From positions 2,147,011 to 2,211,010 of the forward strand of contig NC_040022.1 in assembly GCF_000972845.2 (NCBI RefSeq): a DNA stretch of 64,000 bases. The letters run 5' to 3'. The position numbers and the translations under genes were made by a program. This DNA comes from Larimichthys crocea. Lineage: Eukaryota; Chordata; Actinopteri; Sciaenidae. A model generated the notes under the pieces. It was given only the letters and a program-made list of their open reading frames with translations. It ran no database searches and had not been told where the DNA came from. Positions 2,937 through 36,608 of the stretch are shown here, in pieces (within the stretch, counting starts at the first letter, position 1; the number at the start of each line of letters is the position of its first letter).

Positions 2937-5900
2937 TCACACATACAATTCGAACGTTTCCCACAAAGAGTTCATGTGATCCAGGTCATCCTGCAGATTT
3001 TCAGCCAGCAGGTGAACCCTACCAGAAAACTTGCTCTCATTTGACTTCTTCAGCTTCTGACCACCCTTTTTTGTGAAGTACTGATCCAGTTCATGAATAA
3101 AAGCCTTAAGCAGTTTCTCAGGCGACGCCAGCCGGGTGTTTGCAGAACCCTTCCTGGCATTGTTTGTGAGCACATACTTGGACAGGTGTGCCATATTCAC
3201 TGCATCAGCCTGAACTCTGGCCCTCTGCAACCTGGGAAGGTCGTGCCTTCGCAGCTCGTCCATCCCAGAGAGGATAAAGTCCATCCCAGAGAGGATAAAG
3301 TCCAGACATCGCTCCAGGTCGCCAACCTCGTTTATATATTGGAACGCCAGCGTTTCAACTCTCGCCTTATTCACAGACTTCTTTTTGGCCTTAGCATTGG
3401 CGCCAAGCACCATACCAACACCAACAGCCATAGCAATCAGCGAGAGACCCAAGGTAAAAGGCACCATGGCAACACCTACTACTATAGCCACCACTCCCGC
3501 GGATTCAATTTTTTGGGTTTTCTTCTGCACCTTGTCCAGGCTGCGGCAGATGGAGTTGAACTCTGTGATGATCTCCTGCAGGGTTTCCTTGCGTTTCATC
3601 AAGAGAAGGTTGTAGAGACGGAGGGCTTTTTTCACATTCATGGCTCTCTCATTGAATGATCTGTACACAGACAGAGACAGAAAAGACATAATTAAATCTG
3701 TCTTTATCCAACTCGTTTAGTTTAAAATCAGCCAATTAACTTAAGTAATTTTGACCATATTGTGATTAGATATTTAGGACAGTGAACCATAAAACTGTAT
3801 GCTCCAATCAGACTTTATTTGCAAAGCACTTTTCATACAACCAAAATGTAACAAAAAGTGCTTCACACAATAACACAGAGACCATTAATTGGTAAAGTCA
3901 ACAGGAGACACAGAAATGTAAAGTGGTATGTCATCAGCATAGTGGTGAACATTTATGCCTAACCCCTGGTGTTGGCGTTTCCATGTGGTAGCATGTAAAT
4001 CTTGTTACATGAAACTAAAATAACGTCACCAGATAACAGAAAATGTATGAGGAATCCATATGTTTCCATGTGGTTACCTGATTTCTTCCTCTAAACTGAG
4101 CCCATAGAATGACGGAGCCATTAAATGAGATTCTGTTGGAGTGACAGCACAGAAATAAATTAAATACTGCTCTTTAATACTGAAGACACTGACATGTTAT
4201 GCATCTTTGCATAGTTACTGATTTATCTATTAGACTTTTATTTTAAGATGAATTAATCACTGGTAGTCAATAAAAGAAGGGAAAAAACACCCAAATTTGA
4301 ACTTACTTGACTCTCTTTGCAACCATCTCAGCATCATTTTGATGTCCTGAGGGAAAACATTTTCTCGTTAAACAAAATGTTGCGAGAGACGATTTTTCTC
4401 ATAAAAACCTGTTTAAGCTTTTAATCGGGATAAATCCCAGTTCATTTGCAGGTGAACACAGCAATAGATTAACAGATCAGAACTAAACTAAAGCCTCTAA
4501 ATACTCTAATACAGAAATATAAGATACTTTTTAGAGTGTACACACACAGACACACACTCTCACCGTCACATGTTCATCAGTATCTGGCAGAACTGGCAAA
4601 TAATCAGGATGCACGGTGTTCTCTGACTCTGGCTGTAATGTTCTTGTTGAAGGTGGCCTGAATGGAGGTAGCGGAGGTCCGGTCTGTAATAGATCAAAAA
4701 CAATTTATCAGTTTATAAATGTTCATATACAACCATGCTCACCAGTAAATCAATTGCTCATTCTTGATTGGTCAATAAAAGAAGAAAGTTGGTAAAGCTC
4801 ACTTTATATTTATACAATGTAAGTACTGGATCAGGTGGGGGAGCAAACAGCTTTCCGAAAATCTGCATGTCATGCTGACGTATGTTTCTGATAATGTCAC
4901 GGAAACTCGTATACGTTATGAGTTTCCACCAACATGCACAACAAGCATGTATTTCTGCAACATTTGCTGCTGTTTTGGCACCCGTCCAAGTAACTGTTGT
5001 TGTCTGGTGACTGTCATACCTGTGGAGGCGAGGTTTCACTTACTGAATGTGGAAGGGTGGGCTGCCAAGCTGGAACTGCAGGTCTGTCTGGGTAGTATAA
5101 GTCCTGAAGACATTTACATTGTGGTTGAGTAATGCGGTTGAATAGAATCAAAACTTTGACTTTAAGCTTGCAATTTACCGTTGAATGATCAGGAGTCCAG
5201 TAGAGACCTACTTCCTCAACCGAGAAAGCTGCTGACGAAGATCTGGATTGCCAACTCCCATCATTGAAAATCTATCCAAGGAAATATGAACGAGATGAAA
5301 ATGACTATACAGTATAGTCACGCAAAGAAAAACTGGTTCTTGGGAAACATTTTGTTCTTAAGAACCCTTTCTGCTGCTCCTCATGGCTGTGTGTAGAACT
5401 GATTGTTGTGGTGTCATTTTTCATTGTAAAGGGTGATAATCCACAACTAATTTTTAAAAAGAGAGTGAGAGAGAACAATTAAAATGTGATAAACATTTAT
5501 ATAAAGTAATAAACAACTTCACTGAGTATGTATTTTAGTGATTTTATTTTTTAATGTATCCAATAATGCGTTAAAAGTCCAATATTTTAATTCAAATTAT
5601 TATATATTGTACCTTGAATAAACTCAGGGAGAAATACTGGTTAGACTAAATTCTGGGAAGTAAAAAGTTCCTTGTAGAGCTGGAAAATGTTCCCCTATCG
5701 CAGCACCATGAAGAACCATTTCAGACTCTCACTGGAAGGGTGTTCTTGGGACAACTGACTGAAATGACCATCAGTCTGTGATTTTCCGATGTGTCTGAAA
5801 GAAGTCAAGTACCTCAGGTTCTGGCCTCACTGTAGACAGTGGTTTATAGATACAGTTGGAGGGAGGAGGAGGAGGGAATGCAGGCCGCGGTGGAGGTGGA

Positions 5901-17367: not shown

Positions 17368-19344
<1,977 letters not shown>

Positions 19345-23205: not shown

Positions 23206-26200
23206 TCAGGGCATGTACTTTGTTCCTTTCATCCTAGGAATGATATGCATGTCTCTAATGTCGTCATGCTGAAGCAGCCAGCACAGGTAGCGCTCCGTCC
23301 CCATGCCCCATCCACTGGTGAGGAGTGGTTTCACTTGCCGCATGTTAATGTACCATTTGTAGGACTGCTCCGGCACTGCATGGTGCCTGAGGGCCTCCTG
23401 TACCATCTCAGGGGTGGAGTGACGTTCTCCAAGCCCAACAGTCTCACCAAGCCCCAGAAGAAGGTCACCAGCTTTGGCTTTGCTCCGCCCAGTGCCCTCC
23501 ACATATGCCTGGTAAAAGGGAACTCCTAGATGGTCCATTTCAGTCAGCCAAACAGCACCACCATATTTCTCTATCAAGACCCGCTCGCCTTTGCGTGTCA
23601 GCTTTCTGCCAAATTGGGGCTGGCCATCTTGGACCCACTCTACGCAGTCAGTGGAGGGCATCATGGGAATGGCCTGGTCAAGAGGGACTCTTGGGAGTGG
23701 GGTTTTCCCATCCAGCTTACTCAGCATGGCTGTGACATGTGTCAAGGTCCCAGCAGTGTTTAGGATCAAATCAGAGTGTTTCTTCAGCATAGACTTGGTA
23801 AGATGAGCCACATATCCCTCTGCTATGGACATGGCATTGTCCATGTCACCCAACAGTTCACACTCTACGTGGTAGAACTGGTTCAAGTGTGTGGCATCAG
23901 GATCTTCCCCTCTAAAGCTGGGAGAAATGTAGTACGTCCCTGGTAGGTCATCCTGGAAACGAAGGAAGTATTCAAGTACAAACTGCATTGAGTCAGCCAG
24001 GTAGATATCCTGGCCCAGCAGGTTAACAGAAACTGGTTCTGAGTCAGATCCCAGGCCCATTGGCGAGGAAATGGTGTCTGTTGTGAGAGGTGTTAGAGCG
24101 TAGGAGTACTGGCAGGCAGTGTGGAAATATTCCACTGTGCTATGGAAAAGAGTGTTTTGGATCTGGAATAGGTTGCGATACCACTGGCTCTTGATGGCGA
24201 TTGTGGAGTGAGACTGAGGGTCTTCCCATGAATGAGGAGGCCTGCACTGGGTAATCTTTGAGTGGATCTTTTTGAGGTGCTCAGGGTCAGCAGCTGGACC
24301 ATTCATGGATGACACATATCCAGGGTAGCTTTGGTAGCATTCCGGTTGCAGCTCAGTGGTTTTAGTGCCATCTGGTGAAGGCAACAGAGGGATCAGTTTG
24401 GCATGAGCATAGTCAATCTCAAAGCCTTCAAAGATCAGTGCAACTCCTCGAGCTCTCATTCCCTCTTTCAGCAGTTGGGCAACTTTAAGAGTGGCTAAGA
24501 TCAGTGCTTTGTAGTCAGCTTCCTCTAGTTTGAAGATGTCACTGGACAGTGGTTTGCGTGGCACCACAACAGTTAACCCAGGAGTGTTTGGGTATGGTGT
24601 CAAGAAGGCAACATGCTCACTGTCTTCCCACACTCTCCACTGTTTCTGCTCTCCACGCACAATGCGACTAAACAGGTTATCATTGGAAGCATCTCCAAAA
24701 AAGTCAAAGCAAGAGGGTGCATTTGGTGTTGGCAGTCCATTTCTAATCTTGGCTTGAACCTGGGTCAGTGCTTCATCATCCCAGCACGGGCCACTTTTTG
24801 AGGTGCAGTAGCCAGGATCATAAGTGTGGAATTCTTCTTCACTGGCAAGATGAGGCTGCCACTTTGGCTCCAGACCATGAAGTGGGAGCAGTCTGATTTG
24901 GGCTGGATGATCAGGGTTTGGATTGAAGACCAAGGCACAGCGCTGCACCCCCAGTCGCTCACATAGCAAGCTTGACACAGCTCTTGCTCCTTGTAGCATA
25001 GCCACAAAATCAGATGTAACCAACTGGAAGATGCTGCTTGCCCCGCTAAGACTTTTTCTAGTCAGTATGGTTGACCCAGGGATCCAAGGATTGGGATCAA
25101 GGTAGGCAACCAGCTCATCTGTTTCCCAGATCACATTTGAGAAGTCCTTTCCAGGCCTGAAAACCTCTGCTCGTGAAATGCCATCTACCATTGAGGCCAC
25201 AAACATGACACCAGAGTTTGTTTCAATGATGGCATCACCTTTAGTGTCCACAGCAATGATTCCTGCACAGATCCCGTTTAGATTCTCAGCCATCACTTCT
25301 CTACATGCCTGCCTAAGGCTGTACCCTTTGTGATGGTAGAGACTGGCTATTTTCTGTGCAACTGTATGCCTCAAAAATACATCTCCATCTCCAGAGCAGG
25401 TAATAGCTACCTTGTCATCAGCATATATTCCTGCCCCAACCACTGCTGTATCCCCAACTCGCCCTTTCAGCTTTCCTACTAACCCCCCGGTGGAAGTTGC
25501 AGCAGCCAACTCGTGCCAACGATCCATTGCCACAGCTCCAACTGTCTGAGGGTGATTGTTTTTTGAGGTTTTTCCATTGCTGAGCTTCAGCATTAATTCT
25601 CTGTGACGTACATCTGTGTAGAAATACTCAGGCCCAACTGGCTTCTCTTTCTCTTCCAACCCTTGCAGAAGCTCCTCAGCGCCATCGCCCACAATGAGTG
25701 AATGTGAGCTTTTCTCCATGACACATCTGGCTGCTTTTATTGGGTTCTTCACACTTTGCACACAAGCAACAGATCCCGACCTCATTGCATTGCCGTCTAC
25801 AATGGTGGCTTCCATTTCATTTTTTCCATCCTTGTTGAATACTGAGCCTTTACCTGCATTGAACAGGAAGCAGTCCTCCAGAGCTTCCACTGACTTCTGG
25901 ACTGCGTCCAGACTCTTGCCACCTTGTTGAAGCACTTGGGCTCCAAGGGTTAAAGCTGTCTGCAGAGCAAACTCAATAACCCCGATCACATCAGGGCTCA
26001 GCATCATCTCCTCTCCAGCACCACCATGGATCATTAGAGTGTAGTCTGGGCTCATGCCATCCTTTGGGCTGTCTGGACAGTGATATGCCTCTCCATTCAT
26101 CTTCTCTTTTTGACCCTGTTGAAGTAGACAATCGAGGGCTCCCATTTGGCATGCAATACCATATCTAACAGCTAGAAGCATCACTAACTTCAGGTTTTTG

Positions 26201-28177
26201 TTCAGGCTTTCTTTAAGCTTCTCTAGTGTCAGAGCAAAGCTCCCTTTTCCATTAAGCACAATCCGAACCTTCTCTCTCTTCCCAAGGTATGTTACAGCAA
26301 GCTGGTCTTGGGCATAAACATTCCCTACTCCACATTCCACACCCTCCACCATATCTGTACCTGTGAGGTATACAGGTGGACATCCAAATGGGTCCAGGTA
26401 CTTCTTCAGTGGGTTGTCAGATGGAAGTGACCGACGCAGTGCAGCTAGGTGAGGACCAACTCCTTGACCACTTTTGGTTTTTTTAATGAGGCTCTTGTGC
26501 TCTAAAAATGCAACATGGAACAAGCGTAGGAGGTCAGTAGTGTATTGGACTGTGTTATCTGCGCCAATGCAGGATGCCAAGGCGCCTACAAACTTCTGAG
26601 AGTGCATGGTGAATGAGTATGTAGGATCACAACGGCCATGTTTGTAGTGGCGCATATGGGTAGGCGTGACAAGAATGTGTTTGGCAGCAGCATCCCCAAG
26701 AGTTTGCCTCAGGGAAAGCTGCAAAGAGAAGTTGATCCAAGCATCATAGAGGCCTCTCTGCCCTCTGAGGGTAGAAAATACATCAGGATAGGAAGGGACA
26801 TCAAAAGTGAGAACCGGATGTGTTGTTTTTAAGTCAGGACTCAGTTTGGGGATACTCACGCCTTGCAAGGGGAATGGTAGGGAAGTTGGACAAACAGAAT
26901 TAACATTGTTTACTTTGACAGACCCATTCACATTGTCTGTGTCAGCGTGGACCAGATTTAAGTCAACAGTTTCTGACAGATTGTACACAAACTCAGTCAT
27001 AAGTCCGGCCACCATCCCATCCACAGCACTGTGTTCAAACAGTATCCCAGCTGTGCTGTCCTTGAACACCACCAAGTTCACCACCTGTCAGAAAATAGAA
27101 AAACAAAGATAAGTTTGTTCTTTTAATCCCCTGGAAATCAATCAAACTCTATTAGCACTAATAACATACTCTAGGTTATATACAATACCTTGTCATAATA
27201 TCTCAGACATGGACTGTCTCCGACTCTTCCCAGCCTCACTGCATTGAGGATATCAGCCAGTTCAGACGGTGCGTTGCACTCCTCCAGACAGAGTGTTAAC
27301 ACTGCACTCTCCATCAGCCCCAGTGACGCTGCTGCATCCCCTCCTTGCCCCAGGATCTCTTCCCTGGTGGCCGCCCAGGCTTTGCGCTCCATAGCCGAAA
27401 GGCTGCAGATGGCAGAGGGATCATTCTGTTTTCCTGCTCTGGGTTGATCTATCACCTGAGCCAGCTGGTTGTAGATGTCACTGAATGATCGAGCAGACAC
27501 TGGACCACCAGTGCTTGGACGCCACAGTATGTCAACAGGGAACACTCCTGCAACACAGGTGATGATGGCATGGAGGCTATCTGGATAGACCTGAAAATGA
27601 AATGACAAAGCTACAGATTAGAGATTGTGTTTTGCCGCCCTCCATTGTTGCAAGTTTGAAGCTTGTTGCACCTGTGACCACATCTTTTAAACCCAGAATT
27701 TTCCCTCAGCTTGTGTCCTGCCAGTAATCTCACCTTAATTTCATCTTGAAGTCTTCCAGGAATTCGGCTGGCAGCAAATACCTCAGACTGTTGTGTGCGC
27801 TCCATTGGCACATTGCCCTCCAGCAACAAGGGCTCACTATGCAGCTTTGCCGCTGCCCAGAGCAGAGCGGCTGCCCTCCCCAGCTGGGTACATCGCTTTG
27901 CTTGGGAAGGAAGAACAACAACAGGGAGCGCTGTGGAGGTTGGCAGGGGGTCAGCGCAAGACAGCAGAGCTCTCTTGAATTGCTCCGTCACCCAATTCTC
28001 TTGACCCGAAGCAGTGGTTGCTAATTTTTGCTGGACCTCTTGAAGGAGCTCCCTCTGCTGTTCCATTGTACTTCTGAACTCAGGATAAAGGTCAGGACTT
28101 AAGGTGAGCTGCAGGACACGGCTCACTTCTTGCAAGGTAACATCCAACTCTGGAACAGGGTAGTTGAGAAGGGCCAT
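23206..28177 (-). CDS. Multi-enzyme fusion: acyltransferase + asparaginase-like + 2 HIT + AsnRS/AsnA-like adenylating domain
   Basis: Exons 28177-27734, 27590-27189 and 27084-23206 join in phase 0 to 1574 residues. Residues 1-600: choline/carnitine acyltransferase-like, with YPVPELDVTLQEVSRVLQ, active-site-like FEHSAVDGM (His300), YKHGRCD and GQGVGPHL; a clear STS motif is missing. Residues 629-920: isoaspartyl peptidase/asparaginase Ntn fold, with LMIHGGAG, nucleophile motif HPQTVGAVAMD (Thr796), STGGLVGKLKGRVGDTAVVG and SGDGD. Residues 925-1030: HIT-like, active site degenerate. Residues 1075-1185: second HIT-like, with FSRIVRGEQKQWRVWEDSEH and YAHAKLIPL. Residues 1235-1574: class II synthetase core, motif 2 FRGEDPDATHLNQFYHVE and motif 3 GWGMGTERYLCWLL, no anticodon-binding domain. 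No signal peptide is obvious. Domain calls are strong; the joint function is inference (aspartate/asparagine-type substrate). The ATG follows an acceptor at 28179. Confidence 0.9.
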
Positions 28178-30914: not shown

Positions 30915-32690
30915 ATCTCTTTCTCCCGGTCACAATCTGTCTGATTGTTCACGTGTTTGACGGTCCAACTTCACCACTGACTCTCCCTCCTCTCTCATTC
31001 AAATCTAATTTAAATATATACATATATCTTTTTAATCTTTATCTAAAACTTGTGTTCAGGACAGAAGCTGTTATCTTGTACAGTTAGTCACTGACGATAA
31101 CTGAATCCCTGGCATCAATGCTTCCTTCCTTCTGTGCTGCCAGTTTTGCGAACAAATATAATAAGGTGCTATCTGTTCAGGCAAATTCATTGTGTATCTC
31201 TCAGATTTACACTGACGTTAGTCTTGTACGTGCTCAAACCAACAAATTAGCTTCAACCTGCAACTCCAGTCATACAGTGACTTTATCTTATTTAACCAGC
31301 AAACCCAAATTTAGTTTTTCATCTTATTTAATGTTTTGTTCCTAAGTAAACTATGAGGGAAATTATTGTTATAACTGTGTAATTATGTTAATGAGAGAAG
31401 GGAGTGTGTGAAACCACTGGGTGTTACAGTCCAATCATAAAAAAAACATGATACCAAGAATAAAATGAAACAAAATAAAAATGAAAAACCTAAAAAAAAG
31501 GCATGATTTCTCCTATTGTGTACATGTATCATATACAATGCAATTACTTCTGAAATGCAAATTAGATTAGATTTAATTGTATTACTGCTGATTAGCAGAA
31601 TGCAAAGAAGCAGTAAACTGCAGTATGATATAACATATGGGAATGCTACGTTATGAAGTATTAACATTAATGACGTGATAAACACACAATATGAACTGTA
31701 ACACAACAAACAACCAGCCTTACAATTCTGATACATGAAGGTGAAAACATTTTTATTGATTATTACAAGCAGAGCAAACACACGTCAATAAAAACGCAGA
31801 CAGATGTTAACACCTGCTGAATACTTGGAAATATTGAAATATTGTCAGATACGGTTCCCCCTCTGTTCAATATGAAGATCATACTGCTGACTTCTTTCCC
31901 CACAACAGATAATTCAGGCTGATCTCATTAAATCTGACCATTTAAAACAGAGGGGGACGCATCCTGACAGCTTGGAATATTACTGTCAGATATTGTTCCC
32001 CCTCTGTTCAATATTAAAGGAGGCTCAGACACACATTAAAGACTTTAATAACATTAAACAAGAAATACATAGTGTATACTTACTTTTTAAAAACATACAA
32101 TTATTATCAAATTCAATAAATACATGATTCTGCATCAAAGACATCAGAACAGCATCACATGAGGGATACAAATGTTTCTCAGGAGTCCAGCAACTCACTG
32201 ACTTTCATACACCTCCACTAATTACAAGCAAACAGATCACAGGTGAAGATAGTTACCTTTAATAGCCATTCAATCCCAGTTGTTTCAGGTTAGGTGCAGG
32301 TTATCAGGCCAAATTACGAGGGTATGTAAACTTTTGATCAGGGTGATTTGGATAGTTTCTGTTGTCACTGTGCTTTAAAAAGAGTAAAACCAGATATTTC
32401 ACAATACATGGCTTTGGCCAAACACTATCACTAAGAGTGAAAGAAAACATTTTGTGTTATCATTCATTTTCTCTGAGAAATGGCCAAGAAACAAAACATT
32501 GTGTCTGGTGGAGCTGTTCAGTAGGTGGATGTATTATAAGTTATAAATCAACTTATTGATTCTCTTATTTTGTTAAGTTGTATTCTGGTTTTATTGCATT
32601 CATGCTTTCTACAGTGTTTGCACTCCAAACCACTTGGCGGAGGTAATTTACGCATCAGTTGTCGCTGAGGCTCTGCAGGCTGTCTGTGCT
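30910..32690. other. Intergenic region upstream of mpst copy 1
   Basis: No gene. A segment of about 30 bp (GTTCCCCCTCTGTTCAATAT with flanks) occurs at 31853-31872 and again at 31994-32013, each preceded by a GTCAGATA-type sequence, probably a decayed dispersed repeat. The mpst promoter should lie at the right edge; no TATA box seen. Confidence 0.45.
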
Positions 32691-32696
32691 CTGAAC

Positions 32697-34572
32697 ATGG
32701 GAATGCAAACTCGAGCTCTCGTCTCTGCAAAATGGCTCGCAAACATGCTCAAACGCAATCCGGTCGGACCGAGTTTGCGGATCCTGGACACGTCCTGGTA
32801 CCTCCCGAGCATGAAGCGAGACGGCAAGAAGGAGTTTGCGCAGACGCACATCCCAGGTGCGTCTTTCTTTGACATCGACGAGTGCGCGGACAGGACGTCC
32901 AAGTTTGATCACATGCTCCCCTCAGAGGAGTCCTTCGCAGATTATGTGGGAGATCTTGGCATCGGGACTGACAGCCATGTGGTCGTTTACGACGCCAGTG
33001 ACTTTGGAGCTTTCACCTGCACCAGGGTTTGGTGGATGTTCCGCTTGTTCGGTCATCCACAGGTGTCGGTGCTGAACGGGGGTTTTAGGAACTGGGTCAA
33101 AGAGGGTCATCCAGTGGAAGGGACGTACACCAGACCTGAACCGGCCCGCTTCACCGCCACCACGAAGCACCGCTCCTCCTGGGTGAAGTCATTTGAGGAC
33201 ATTACAAAGAACATAACAGATCAGGAGTTTCAGGTGGTGGATGTGAGACCGTATGCGAGGTTCCGAGGGAAAGAACCAGAACCAAGAGAGGGTACGCCTG
33301 CTTTGAGATTTAATATTTTATCCCTTTATTTATTTAAATGGCACCTTTTATGCAAACATGCAGCCCAAAGTGCTTCACAGAGCAAACATACATAAAATGT
33401 TAAAATAAGTAAAAATCAGTAAGAAAATACAAATAAATAAACTGAAATCTAAAAAATAAACAAAATGTTTAAGAACCAGTTCAGCAAGCCATAAAAACCA
33501 TGTCAACAATATGCTTAAAGTTAATAAAGTATTAGTACAAAGAAGTATCAGAGAGGATCAAGGCCATGAAGTGCAGTATGTGGGCCATGTTTTTCAGAAT
33601 CTTATCAGCGAGCTACCAACTGAACACTGATAATTAATTAAAGGACCAGTGTGTCGGATTTAGTGGCATCTAACTGGTTTAGTTGCTGATTGCAGCGCCC
33701 TTCCCTTTCTAGCGGTGCAAAAACCAAACACCAACCTCCATGGCTGTGAAGTGAAGTGCCAAAAACTGCAGTTCCTCAAACGTCCACTTGAGGCTGGCTC
33801 CAGAAGTGAGTCAGTCTCCATAAGTCCCCATGTTCAAATGTCCAACTTCACAGCAGAAATAAACATGTTTACAGCCTGGTACAAAAAACGTTTTGGTCTC
33901 TGTAGCTAATTTCCCCGTTCATGACAACTGTACTGAGGGTGAATTTATATACAACTCACCTGTTCACATTATATTAAGGCTTAAAGTTCCAAATAATTAA
34001 CAGTGTGGCTGCTTTAATTGACAGGTAGGTGCTGTTACAGATGACTTATATGAGCAACCAGGTGTCATTCGGCCCACCTCAGATCCACCGATGATCCACG
34101 TCTTTGCCGATTTTTAGATTAGCCGAAATGTTCCTGAATGTTAAATTGATGTGCAGGAATTTGTGACATGTCTGAAGAGCACAGACAAAAACACAAATGC
34201 ATGTTAGAGACTCTTAAGATTTCTGTGTATTTTACCATGCAAAGAAAGTAACTCCTGTGTCCTTGTCCCACAGGTGTTAAACCGGGTCACATCCCCGGCT
34301 CCAAATGCATGCCTTTTTTCAGTTTCGTCGACAATGACGGCATGATGCTGTCCACGGAGGAACTGAAGAAGTTCTTTGAGAAGTCAAAAGTGGACCTGAA
34401 TAAGCCGATCTGTGGATCCTGCGGCTCCGGTGTGACCGCCTGTCACTTGGTGCTGGCTGCCCATCTGTGCGGCGCCCCCGAGGAGGCGTCTGTGTACGAC
34501 GGATCCTGGTATGAGTGGTTCACTAAGGCTCCACCAGAGCATGTGGTCTCTGAGGCCGAAAGCAAGCTTTGA
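32697..34572 (+). CDS. mpst: 3-mercaptopyruvate/thiosulfate sulfurtransferase, copy 1
   Basis: MPST moves sulfur from 3-mercaptopyruvate to thiols or thioredoxin (H2S and cysteine catabolism) in cytosol and mitochondria. Exons 32697-33291 and 34274-34572 give 297 residues, the family length. Two rhodanese domains are visible: the N-terminal one with TRALVSAKWLAN, ILDTSWYLPSMKRD and FAQTHIPGASFFDIDECAD, and the C-terminal one with the catalytic loop CGSGVTACH (Cys248, as in human MPST; rhodanese TST has CRKGVT). It ends with VYDGSWYEWF. The start MGMQTRALVS matches the paired gene's [10 protein letters not shown]. The intron (33292-34273) holds a dispersed repeat. AATAAA lies at 34803. A tandem paralogue follows 0.9 kb downstream. 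Confidence 0.94.
33630..34065 (+). repeat. Dispersed repeat in mpst intron
   Basis: Begins AAAGGACCAGTGTGTCGGAT, a common teleost element, continues with GAGTCAGTCTCCATAAGTCC and ACAGCCTGGTACAAAAAA, and ends near AATTGACAGGTAGGTGCTGT. The same element is at 9597, 37065 and, inverted, 38905 and 55195. Confidence 0.75.
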
Positions 34573-34802
34573 GGAGGACGAAGACAAACCAGCATTTGAT
34601 ATATTCTCACTGTTCTCAGCATGTAACTCTTTATCCTGTAAAGGCCCTCTCTGTACAGGCCCATGATTTGAATAATTCAGCTCATACAGGATCATTTTCA
34701 CTAAATCCTGAATCTGAAAAGCTTCTGCCTGCCGCCTGTGGCCTTTTTAAAGAAATGTATCCATGTGGCACAACCTGCTGGTGCTTTAGTGGATGTGCAG
34801 TT

Positions 34803-34808
34803 AATAAA
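34803..34808 (+). terminator. mpst: mpst copy 1 polyadenylation signal
   Basis: AATAAA about 230 bp after the stop codon. Confidence 0.75.
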
Positions 34809-34829
34809 CGTGCCTTGAAAGACTTTTGA

Positions 34830-35490
34830 AGAACTAATGTGTCTGTCATAGCCTCTGCTTTACAGACTGTGTTCTACTGTTGGCACACGGAGGGATCTTA
34901 TAGTATCAAAATAATACAAATTTACATTTCCTGTAATATTTCGCACATACATTAATGATTATTCATGAGTTAAAATGTGATGGCAGAAGTGCATCAAATC
35001 AATTTACAGAGATTTCTAATATTTATTTTTTTATTTTAAACAGAAAACCACTAAAATTTTATTTACAAAGTTAGAGTTTGAATGTAAAGGTGCACATTCA
35101 CATTCATGTAAAACTAATAAGACTTATGAAGAAAAACATTGTTGTTAATGTAATAATACTTAAAATAATAGTTTGGTTGTTTACAGATATTGTCCATTAT
35201 TTTATTGTATACAAACAAACAGAAAACTACTGTAAAATTTTCCATAAATTTCATTTATACTTTTACAACATCCAGCTGCTCTGTGTCTCAAGTAGAAGAA
35301 GAGATTTTATTTAATATTTAATGTGTTTTTATGTATTTGTCATGTTTATTAATGACGCATCTTGAATGCGTGCTGTGCGGTGTTTGCACATTTTGCAGGC
35401 GCAAAGTTCACAGTTTGCAGAGAACATGGAGTTCACGCTTTCTGCATGTTTAACATTTCCCTCTAGCGCTCACGGCTTGTATTTGTACCC
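34830..35490. other. Spacer between the two sulfurtransferase genes
   Basis: AT-rich, about 650 bp, with no element recognised. The second gene's promoter must lie here; there is no clear TATA box near 35400-35490. Confidence 0.45.
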
Positions 35491-35493
35491 ATC

Positions 35494-36608
35494 ATGGCGG
35501 CTCAGACCCGGGCTCTGGTGTCGGGACAGTGGCTGTCGGATGCGATCAGAAACAACCTGATCGGACCGAAGCTCCGCGTTCTGGACTCGTCATGGTATCT
35601 ACCGAAAACCAAACGGGACCCGAGGGCTGAATTTGCGCAGAGGCACATCCCGGGCTCGTCGTTTTTTGACATAGACCAATGCAGCGATAAAAGCTCCGAG
35701 CTGGATCACATGCTGCCAACTTCCAGACACTTCTCCGAGTATGTTGGAGATCTGGGCATCGGCAACGACACGCACGTCGTCGTGTACGACACCAGCGACT
35801 TCGGGGCGTTCAGCGCGCCCCGCGTCTGGTGGATGTTCCGGCTGTTCGGGCACGGCTTGGTGTCGGTGCTGGACGGTGGGATGAAGAACTGGTTGGCTGA
35901 GGGCCGTCCTGTCACATCCGAGCACTCCAAACCGGAGAGCAGAGAGTTCAAGGCGACTCTGAACCAGGCGTGGGTGAAGAGCTATGAGGACGTGCTGGTC
36001 TGAACCAGGCGTGGGTGAAGAGCTATGAGGACGTGCTGGAAAACATCGGCACCAAGCAGGTCCAAACTGTGGATGCAAGGTCTGCAGGGAGGTTCAGAGG
36101 AACCGAGCCCGAACCCAGAGATGGTGAGCAGGATTTCAAAATAAAAGCACTAAGATGAGTGGACAGGTGGAATTATAAAGTATGCATGATTGATTGAACA
36201 GAAGTGATCTCATGGCATCTTGTTGGTTTGTTGGGACATTACCTGTTGTAAGACTTTTAACTGACTTGTTGAATTGTATCTCACTCCTTTCTCTCTCTTG
36301 CCCTCGCAGACACGCTGCCGGGTCATTTCCCCGGTACCATCAACATGCCGTTCCCGTCTTTCATGGACGCCTCTGGAAAAGAGCTGGGAACTGACCAACT
36401 GTCCAAACTGTTCAAAGAGGCCGGGGTGGACCTGGAGAAACCACTGTGGGCTACCTGTGGGTCCGGTGTCACGGCGTGTCATGTTGTTCTGGCTGCTCAC
36501 CTGCTGGGACACCCCGGGGTGTGTGTTTATGACGGATCCTGGTCTGAATGGTTTAAAAGGGCGACTCCAGAGCACATCATCTCAGAGGGGGAAGGGAAGA
36601 AGGTGTGA
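35494..36608 (+). pseudogene. MPST-type sulfurtransferase, copy 2, frame broken by a 41-bp duplication
   Basis: A close paralogue of the gene 0.9 kb upstream: [34 protein letters not shown] and [19 protein letters not shown]. Exon 1 is 35494-36123, exon 2 is 36310-36608 with the same catalytic loop CGSGVTACH and end VYDGSWSEWF. At 35959-36039 a 41-bp unit is present twice, so the frame runs into TGA at 36001 after YEDVLV (169 residues). Removing one unit restores the frame up to the GTGAGC donor at 36124 and on into exon 2. Nothing else in the gene is damaged, so either a recent mutation or an assembly error is likely. If the error is in the assembly, this is an intact second mpst/tst-type gene of 295 residues. 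Confidence 0.8.
35959..36039 (+). repeat. 41-bp tandem duplication in sulfurtransferase copy 2
   Basis: Units start at 35959 and 36000, each beginning CTGAACCAGGCGTGGGTGAA. The copies are identical over 40 bp and the period is 41. Confidence 0.92.

Follow-up and report, generated by a model that had tools for sequence, protein, structure and literature searches.

A 64-kb window of Larimichthys crocea DNA (64,000 nucleotides of contig NC_040022.1) carries on its minus strand the ortholog of zebrafish si:ch211-256m1.8 (saiyan), and this is almost certainly one conserved gene encoding one protein of five modules. The C-terminal module, an adenylate-forming core resembling asparaginyl-tRNA synthetase (AsnRS), is very likely of AgnA-type biosynthetic ancestry. 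A role for the whole protein as a biosynthetic megaenzyme is proposed tentatively.

Gene model and module order

The first-pass annotation of this DNA had proposed a single polypeptide with five modules in a fixed order, and this arrangement was reproduced. Three exons between positions 23206 and 28177 joined in frame to give a protein of 1574 amino acids; the two introns (143 and 104 bases) had GT-AG boundaries, and exon 3 by itself was an open frame of 1292 residues. Pfam matches and a fold model identified, from the N to the C terminus, a choline/carnitine-acyltransferase-like module, an N-terminal nucleophile (Ntn) isoaspartyl peptidase/asparaginase-like module, two HIT modules and the AsnRS-like adenylating core (Table 1). 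The motifs quoted in the annotation (FEHSAVDGM, HPQTVGAVAMD, GRVGDTAVVGAGIYAD, FRGEDPDATHLNQFYHVE and GWGMGTERYLCWLL) were all present in the translation. The predicted splicing was supported by the nearest database protein, an annotated protein of Collichthys lucidus that was equal in length and differed at 22 positions. No further copies were detected within the window apart from the gene itself, and a PADLOC defense-system match for the exon 3 frame was absent. Literature searches found no described enzyme with this order, in agreement with the annotation, which had missed that the conserved gene was already named and had a published iridophore role.

Conservation and distribution in eukaryotes

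A whole-sequence search returned 214 database proteins, and the best 120 of these were teleost or unassigned records with acyltransferase, asparaginase and synthetase domains; whole-length identity was 99% at the top of the range and 67-68% at the bottom (eel, tarpon and a carp). The annotation had suggested a search of other genomes for the same order; beyond teleosts, the five modules were recovered with a distant member (P0185) in gar, Lingula anatina (1538 amino acids) and the scorpion Centruroides (1521 amino acids), and they were also present in two fungi, the basidiomycete Amylocystis (1543 amino acids) and Talaromyces rugulosus (1556 amino acids). Another record was 70% identical to the Centruroides protein. 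Shorter forms were also observed: 13 named fungal records in the P0185 list had no acyltransferase, some predicted animal and fungal proteins had the core without the Ntn module, and Lingula had a core-only predicted paralog besides its five-module protein (P0134 and P0258). Fungal rows did not form one group in a 79-row tree, in which the five-module P0289 lay beside animals (support of 88, not starred), and the distribution between fungi and animals may have arisen by vertical loss or by transfer between them.

Active-site positions were examined in an alignment of 121 rows, mostly fish, that comprised the window protein and 120 proteins of at least 850 amino acids among the first 240 fetched. 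In a second alignment of nine proteins, Thr796, His1176, Lys1178, Arg1340 and Arg1547 were invariant, and His300 and Asp304 were present in all six members having an acyltransferase. The long proteins fetched later were covered by a spot check of 20 non-teleost sequences, and the Thr of TVG and the YAHxK motif were found in 20/20.

Several records stood apart. Two predicted proteins per species were seen in Dicentrarchus (P0002/P0003), Sebastes (P0011/P0049), Centropristis (P0078/P0086) and Nerophis (P0055/P0092), and these pairs may be recent saiyan duplications. A record from the ostracod Cyprideis torosa (P0295), 86% identical to an Alosa protein, was dropped as probable fish contamination. 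Contamination was also suspected for Lampetra planeri P0158, a lamprey record in which the core is joined to a rhodanese domain, because rhodanese-like frames adjoin the gene in the window. No viral relative was present among 49 pattern matches in one scan of viral contigs.

Ancestry of the adenylate-forming core

The core matched Pfam tRNA-synt_2 (3e-27), its model spanned residues 121-433 of 1x54, and the motif 2 and motif 3 arginines of the class II core were present. An N-terminal anticodon-binding domain was not found, and the HIT pair occupied the region ahead of the core; the description of an AsnRS-like core without an anticodon domain was thus borne out. The annotation had read this part as AsnRS/AsnA-like and had missed its AgnA-type kinship.

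A tree was constructed from 39 hand-picked rows, drawn from 302 fetched proteins and the locus proteins, with five bacterial AsnRS as the outgroup and no eukaryotic or archaeal AsnRS. The fish core and 12 AgnA-type bacterial proteins were separated from the five AsnRS with a support of 100/100. Eukaryotes formed one clade (99/100) within the bacterial set, and the nearest sequences to them were from Herpetosiphonaceae and a deltaproteobacterium (93/92, not starred). The AgnA row in this tree was long (1.69). We relied on this tree and not on the earlier, quick tree of 79 hand-picked rows, in which two long bacterial rows were joined. A GSDS loop motif followed the same division: it was found in the fish protein, in 279 of the 291 fetched proteins that had 250 or more amino acids of the domain and in 11 of 12 bacterial tree rows (the exception being L016), and in 0/5 AsnRS.

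AgnA of pAgK84 and the fish protein share a class II AsnRS-like core lacking the anticodon domain, the GLGSDS motif, a joint clade and 37-38% identity; AgnA is a single domain, whereas the fish protein adds the HIT pair and the Ntn and acyltransferase modules. A review describes the agnA product as a truncated AsnRS homolog that has lost the anticodon domain and works in the biosynthesis of an antibiotic (PMC4392301). These comparisons indicated that the core very likely descends from AgnA-type biosynthetic enzymes.

A plain AsnRS or a plain asparagine synthetase was rejected, as the core scored below both curated cut-offs and lay outside the clade of five bacterial AsnRS. AsnRS proteins carried GEIIGGS/GGS[QEM]R and the His of H[STA]G[FY]G (five chains; 5/5 bacterial AsnRS), whereas the fish core had GLGERH and TSGWG; the Thr replacing the AsnRS His was invariant in 9-row and 17-row alignments. 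Archaeal-type asparagine synthetase A resembles the fish core in being an AsnRS-like core alone and was its best NCBIfam model, but the fish core reached 199 of the 322 bits required and carries fused modules. This archaeal enzyme was not among the 50 rows of VIA-align, which does not count as a sign of difference, and a profile search did find it (3p8t).

The HIT pair

Two HIT-like domains had been annotated, and two HIT folds were indeed predicted (both halves, predicted local distance difference test score of 93); the implied pair of active sites was reduced to a single candidate. The second HIT had a Pfam HIT match (3.5e-6). It did not carry HxHxH: the central His and the Lys were present in 121/121 rows, with Tyr in 108 and His in 13 at the first position. 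The first HIT had no Pfam match, yet matched a bacterial HIT protein at 6e-8, and no triad was present in the 121-row alignment. By these sequence patterns, the protein would have one candidate HIT active site, and the fold model suggests that the first HIT is likely to be the structural half of a GalT-like pair. Among two-HIT enzymes, GalT and ADP-glucose phosphorylase were compared with the fish protein, whose second HIT has YAHxK and whose first HIT has no triad. The motif of GalT is HPHxQ, and this was absent from the fish protein.

The Ntn and acyltransferase modules

The Ntn module matched Asparaginase_2 with an E value of 9.5e-79 (265 bits versus a cut-off of 27), and the NCBIfam beta-aspartyl-peptidase equivalog scored 216 bits, below its cut-off of 567. 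Its best PDB match was 2zak, which we take to be Escherichia coli IaaA. The beta subunits of solved enzymes aligned starting at Thr796, and Thr796, Thr814, Arg824 and Asp827 (STGG and GRVGD motifs) were present in 121/121 rows, so that the module has in common with IaaA and ASRGL1 the Ntn family, the Thr nucleophile and both motifs. Unlike those enzymes, the fish protein has Gln ahead of the nucleophile Thr, and the module sits within a long chain, such that the self-cleavage predicted before Thr796 would split the megaenzyme. The preceding residue was Gln in the five-module proteins seen and Gly, Gln, Glu or Asp in the fungal three-module forms (P0264, P0268, P0242-P0250 and others).

The frame of each of the three exons gave a Carn_acyltransf match above the Pfam cut-off. 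The best PDB match of this module was choline acetyltransferase, with EHSxxDG aligned; it thus resembles the choline/carnitine acyltransferases in family and motif but is only distantly similar (66 bits). His300 was present in 121/121 rows and Asp304 in 120/121, with one gap.

Bacterial relatives and their loci

Plasmid-borne bacterial relatives included agnA of pAgK84, annotated as Agrocin84-synthetase, in a cluster with a methyltransferase, a resistant LeuRS and an S66 gene that carries its own annotation as MccF-like. Sixteen loci with an AgnA-like gene were compared (L001-L007 and L009-L017). A related methyltransferase was present in 10/16, an S66/MccF-like peptidase in 9/16 and a second aminoacyl-tRNA synthetase or synthetase-like gene in 9/16; these counts were made without control windows, include close kin (L001 with L002 and L004 with L005) and used queries from the same loci, so that each source locus matches itself. 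L008, in which a 23% match was taken as an AspRS gene, was left out of the 16 and, as the sole unrelated locus in the cassette database, had no match. As second synthetase, the agrocin and Xenorhabdus loci carried LeuRS, those of Exiguobacterium and Peribacillus carried AlaRS, and others carried a ProRS-like or AlaRS-like gene; hosts also included Streptomyces, Bradyrhizobium and others. The two loci nearest the fish core carried LuxE, and one of them, L006, also had LuxC together with a carrier protein and an AMP-binding enzyme. The other, L003, had in addition a HIT protein that matched the second fish HIT (32%, 9e-21).

S66 kin of MccF accompany the bacterial AgnA-like relatives, a likeness to the microcin C pathway (MccB, MccF and MccE). 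The present system differs from that pathway in having no ribosomal peptide, and MccB has an unrelated fold. Review passages describe the microcin C product as an aminoacyl nucleotide linked through a phosphorus-nitrogen (P-N) bond, and state that the producers of agrocin 84 and microcin C are guarded by a resistant synthetase and MccF (including PMC4392301). Because such genes protect known producers, the AgnA-like cassettes look like makers of aminoacyl-nucleotide compounds, by analogy in every case except agrocin 84, and are probable tRNA-synthetase-inhibitor clusters not yet characterized.

Published expression and phenotype

A 2026 paper reports that saiyan is essential for normal iridophore cover in zebrafish. 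In passages of a clownfish study, si:ch211-256m1.8 is expressed in white and not orange skin and is treated as an iridophore-related color gene with which no function had previously been associated (PMC12918100). Searches of the open-license literature found no biochemical function for saiyan.

Proposed function and its rivals

From the modules we infer a substrate, an order of steps, a P-N bond and a product. With ATP and an acid resembling Asn or Asp bound, the AgnA-type core would produce either an aminoacyl adenylate or an AMP conjugate with a P-N link. Folded as one GalT unit, the HIT pair would transfer or remove AMP via His1176, and the acyltransferase module would attach a CoA-borne fatty acyl group. 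The Ntn module, cutting the chain before Thr796, would hydrolyze an Asn or beta-aspartyl amide for release, trimming or self-protection. Since the core is kin to AgnA, an amino-acid-nucleotide conjugate would be a more likely product than free asparagine, and the likeliest product class would be the dinogunellins, because the modules would deal with ATP and an Asn-type acid as well as with a P-N bond and a fatty acyl group. AgnA has reportedly been proposed (Kim, 2006) to form the P-N bond of agrocin 84, and the third part of dinogunellins is an asparagine-derived aminosuccinimide. The gene was found in an eel (P0114), the prickleback Cebidichthys (P0030) and the sculpin Clinocottus (P0119), presumably kin of dinogunellin-bearing fish. 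In the active part of agrocin 84, the anhydride found in leucyl-AMP is replaced by an N-acyl phosphoramidate (PMC4307249). Dinogunellins are described as phospholipids that contain adenosine, a fatty acid and a P-N bond and that occur in cabezon and northern blenny roe and in eel blood (PMC6429109 and PMC7463754); the review passages on dinogunellins name no enzyme.

We regard a eukaryotic megaenzyme producing an acylated amino-acid nucleotide as possible, and as the reading to work from. A fuller scheme is more doubtful: an AgnA-type synthetase from bacterial clusters would have been extended in eukaryotes by HIT, Ntn and fatty-acyl modules to become saiyan, making dinogunellin-type lipid-nucleotides in fish, with relatives in arachnids, brachiopods and fungi and a role in iridophores. 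That the product is of the dinogunellin type in particular is, taken by itself, rather unlikely.

A number of observations weigh against this proposal. Asparagine synthetase A scored highest on the core among NCBIfam models (199.2 bits with the PRK06462 models; cut-off, 322), ahead of the AsnRS models asnS (110 bits; cut-off, 342.6) and PRK03932 (114 bits; cut-off, 414), all being under cut-off. The GalT-like superposition was loose (root mean square deviation of 4.1-4.6), and Foldseek's own superpositions of GalT-like chains gave 13-20. Only 1/16 bacterial loci (L003) had a HIT protein, and at an E value of 0.01 neither the asparaginase nor the acyltransferase module of the fish protein had a match in these loci. 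The Ntn module would have no clear step in the pathway. That relatives of dinogunellin-bearing fish have the gene is not informative, because it is spread across the listed teleosts, and we know of no dinogunellin-like compounds from fungi, Lingula or scorpions. What is published on expression and phenotype relates to iridophores and to white skin, not to eggs or blood, and has no link to dinogunellins.

The main rival, which we consider unlikely, is an Asn-dependent amidotransferase in which the Ntn module would release ammonia, with Asn or a beta-aspartyl amide as its source, and the AsnA-like core would use it to amidate an activated acid, with HIT clearing stray adenylate and the acyltransferase modifying the product. 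AsnB-type enzymes likewise pair a synthetase with an Ntn glutaminase, and the top NCBIfam scores (asparagine synthetase A on the core, 199 bits; beta-aspartyl-peptidase on the Ntn module, 216 bits) and the conserved catalytic sites of both modules are what such an enzyme would show. However, both scores are below cut-off (322 and 567), the bacterial loci resemble nucleotide-antibiotic cassettes with no match to the fish asparaginase module, and some predicted animal and fungal proteins have the core without Ntn.

Less probable again is a guard or repair enzyme, whose HIT would dismantle aminoacyl adenylates and phosphoramidates and whose Ntn module would dismantle isoaspartyl or beta-aspartyl amides, the core serving as a binding module, for protection of cells with a high purine flux such as iridophores. 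Hint enzymes hydrolyze nucleotide phosphoramidates according to a review passage, the His is kept in the second HIT, and expression in iridophores has been described. Nevertheless, the ATP-binding motif positions of the core are kept in nearly all 121 sequences, beyond the needs of a binding module, and an acyltransferase with a conserved His would be left unexplained.

Slightly less credible still is a multifunctional enzyme feeding aspartate or nitrogen to purine synthesis for iridophore guanine crystals. The asparaginase-like module would yield aspartate, and the gene is an iridophore marker with a reported zebrafish iridophore role, but the five-module form occurs in two fungi, organisms without iridophores, the Pfam matches include no purine-pathway domain, and the core is kin to AgnA. 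Separate genes joined by the reader can be rejected with near certainty: three exons did require joining, but their frames join, exon 3 alone is an open frame with four modules and the acyltransferase C terminus, and the order is conserved across many named genomes.

If the megaenzyme proposal holds, a pigment-cell gene with a reported phenotype and no biochemistry found in the open-license literature would be assigned to an enzyme class that can be tested, a candidate enzyme would be at hand for where dinogunellins come from, and an antibiotic-synthesis fold would be placed within an animal megaenzyme. The bacterial cassettes, with their AgnA-like, methyltransferase, S66 and second synthetase-like genes, look like producers of new tRNA-synthetase inhibitors.

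Feature positions and neighboring frames

Table 1. Features of the gene, its flanks and bacterial loci (window positions unless a locus is named)
Feature	Position	Strand	Basis or remark
Exon 1 (residues 1-148; start ATG at 28177; acyltransferase-like module, N-terminal part)	27734..28177	minus	Pfam, frame joining
Exon 2 (residues 149-282; acyltransferase-like module continued)	27189..27590	minus	Pfam, frame joining
Exon 3 (residues 283-1574 and stop codon; acyltransferase C terminus and other four modules)	23206..27084	minus	
Choline/carnitine-acyltransferase-like module (residues about 4-605, two introns inside)	26116..28168	minus	Pfam, PDB match
Catalytic-type His300 of HxxxDG, with Asp304	27031-27033 (His300)	minus	
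Ntn isoaspartyl peptidase/asparaginase-like module (residues about 629-915)	25186..26046	minus	Pfam, PDB alignment
Predicted self-cleavage before Thr796	25543-25545 (Thr796)	minus	would give chains of 86.6 and 86.5 kDa
First HIT fold (residues about 928-1060), no HxHxH	24751..25149	minus	bacterial match, fold model
Second HIT fold (residues about 1083-1200), YAHxK motif	24331..24684	minus	Pfam, fold model
His1176, candidate nucleophile of second HIT	24403-24405	minus	
AgnA/AsnRS-like adenylate-forming core (residues 1240-1574), no anticodon domain	23209..24213	minus	profiles, structure comparison, tree
Core positions: motif 2 Arg1340, motif 3 Arg1547, family motif GLGSDS (Ser1295, Asp1296)			
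MID51-like frame and two rhodanese-like frames flanking the gene	17368-18192 and 32577-36003	minus and plus, respectively	
Frame with sub-threshold apolipoprotein L match	2937-3716	minus	
Pantoea plasmid gene, annotated GNAT acetyltransferase, fused to AgnA-like core (531 amino acids)	L010:11446-13041		
Frame seemingly joining AlaRS-related N-terminal part to S66 peptidase	L001:18461-20623 and L002:18610-20805		

MIEF1 is named elsewhere as the likely neighbor of the gene (PMC5638112). The fish proteins P0056 and P0066 also bear MID51-type domains, and these are probably annotation errors spanning the neighbor.

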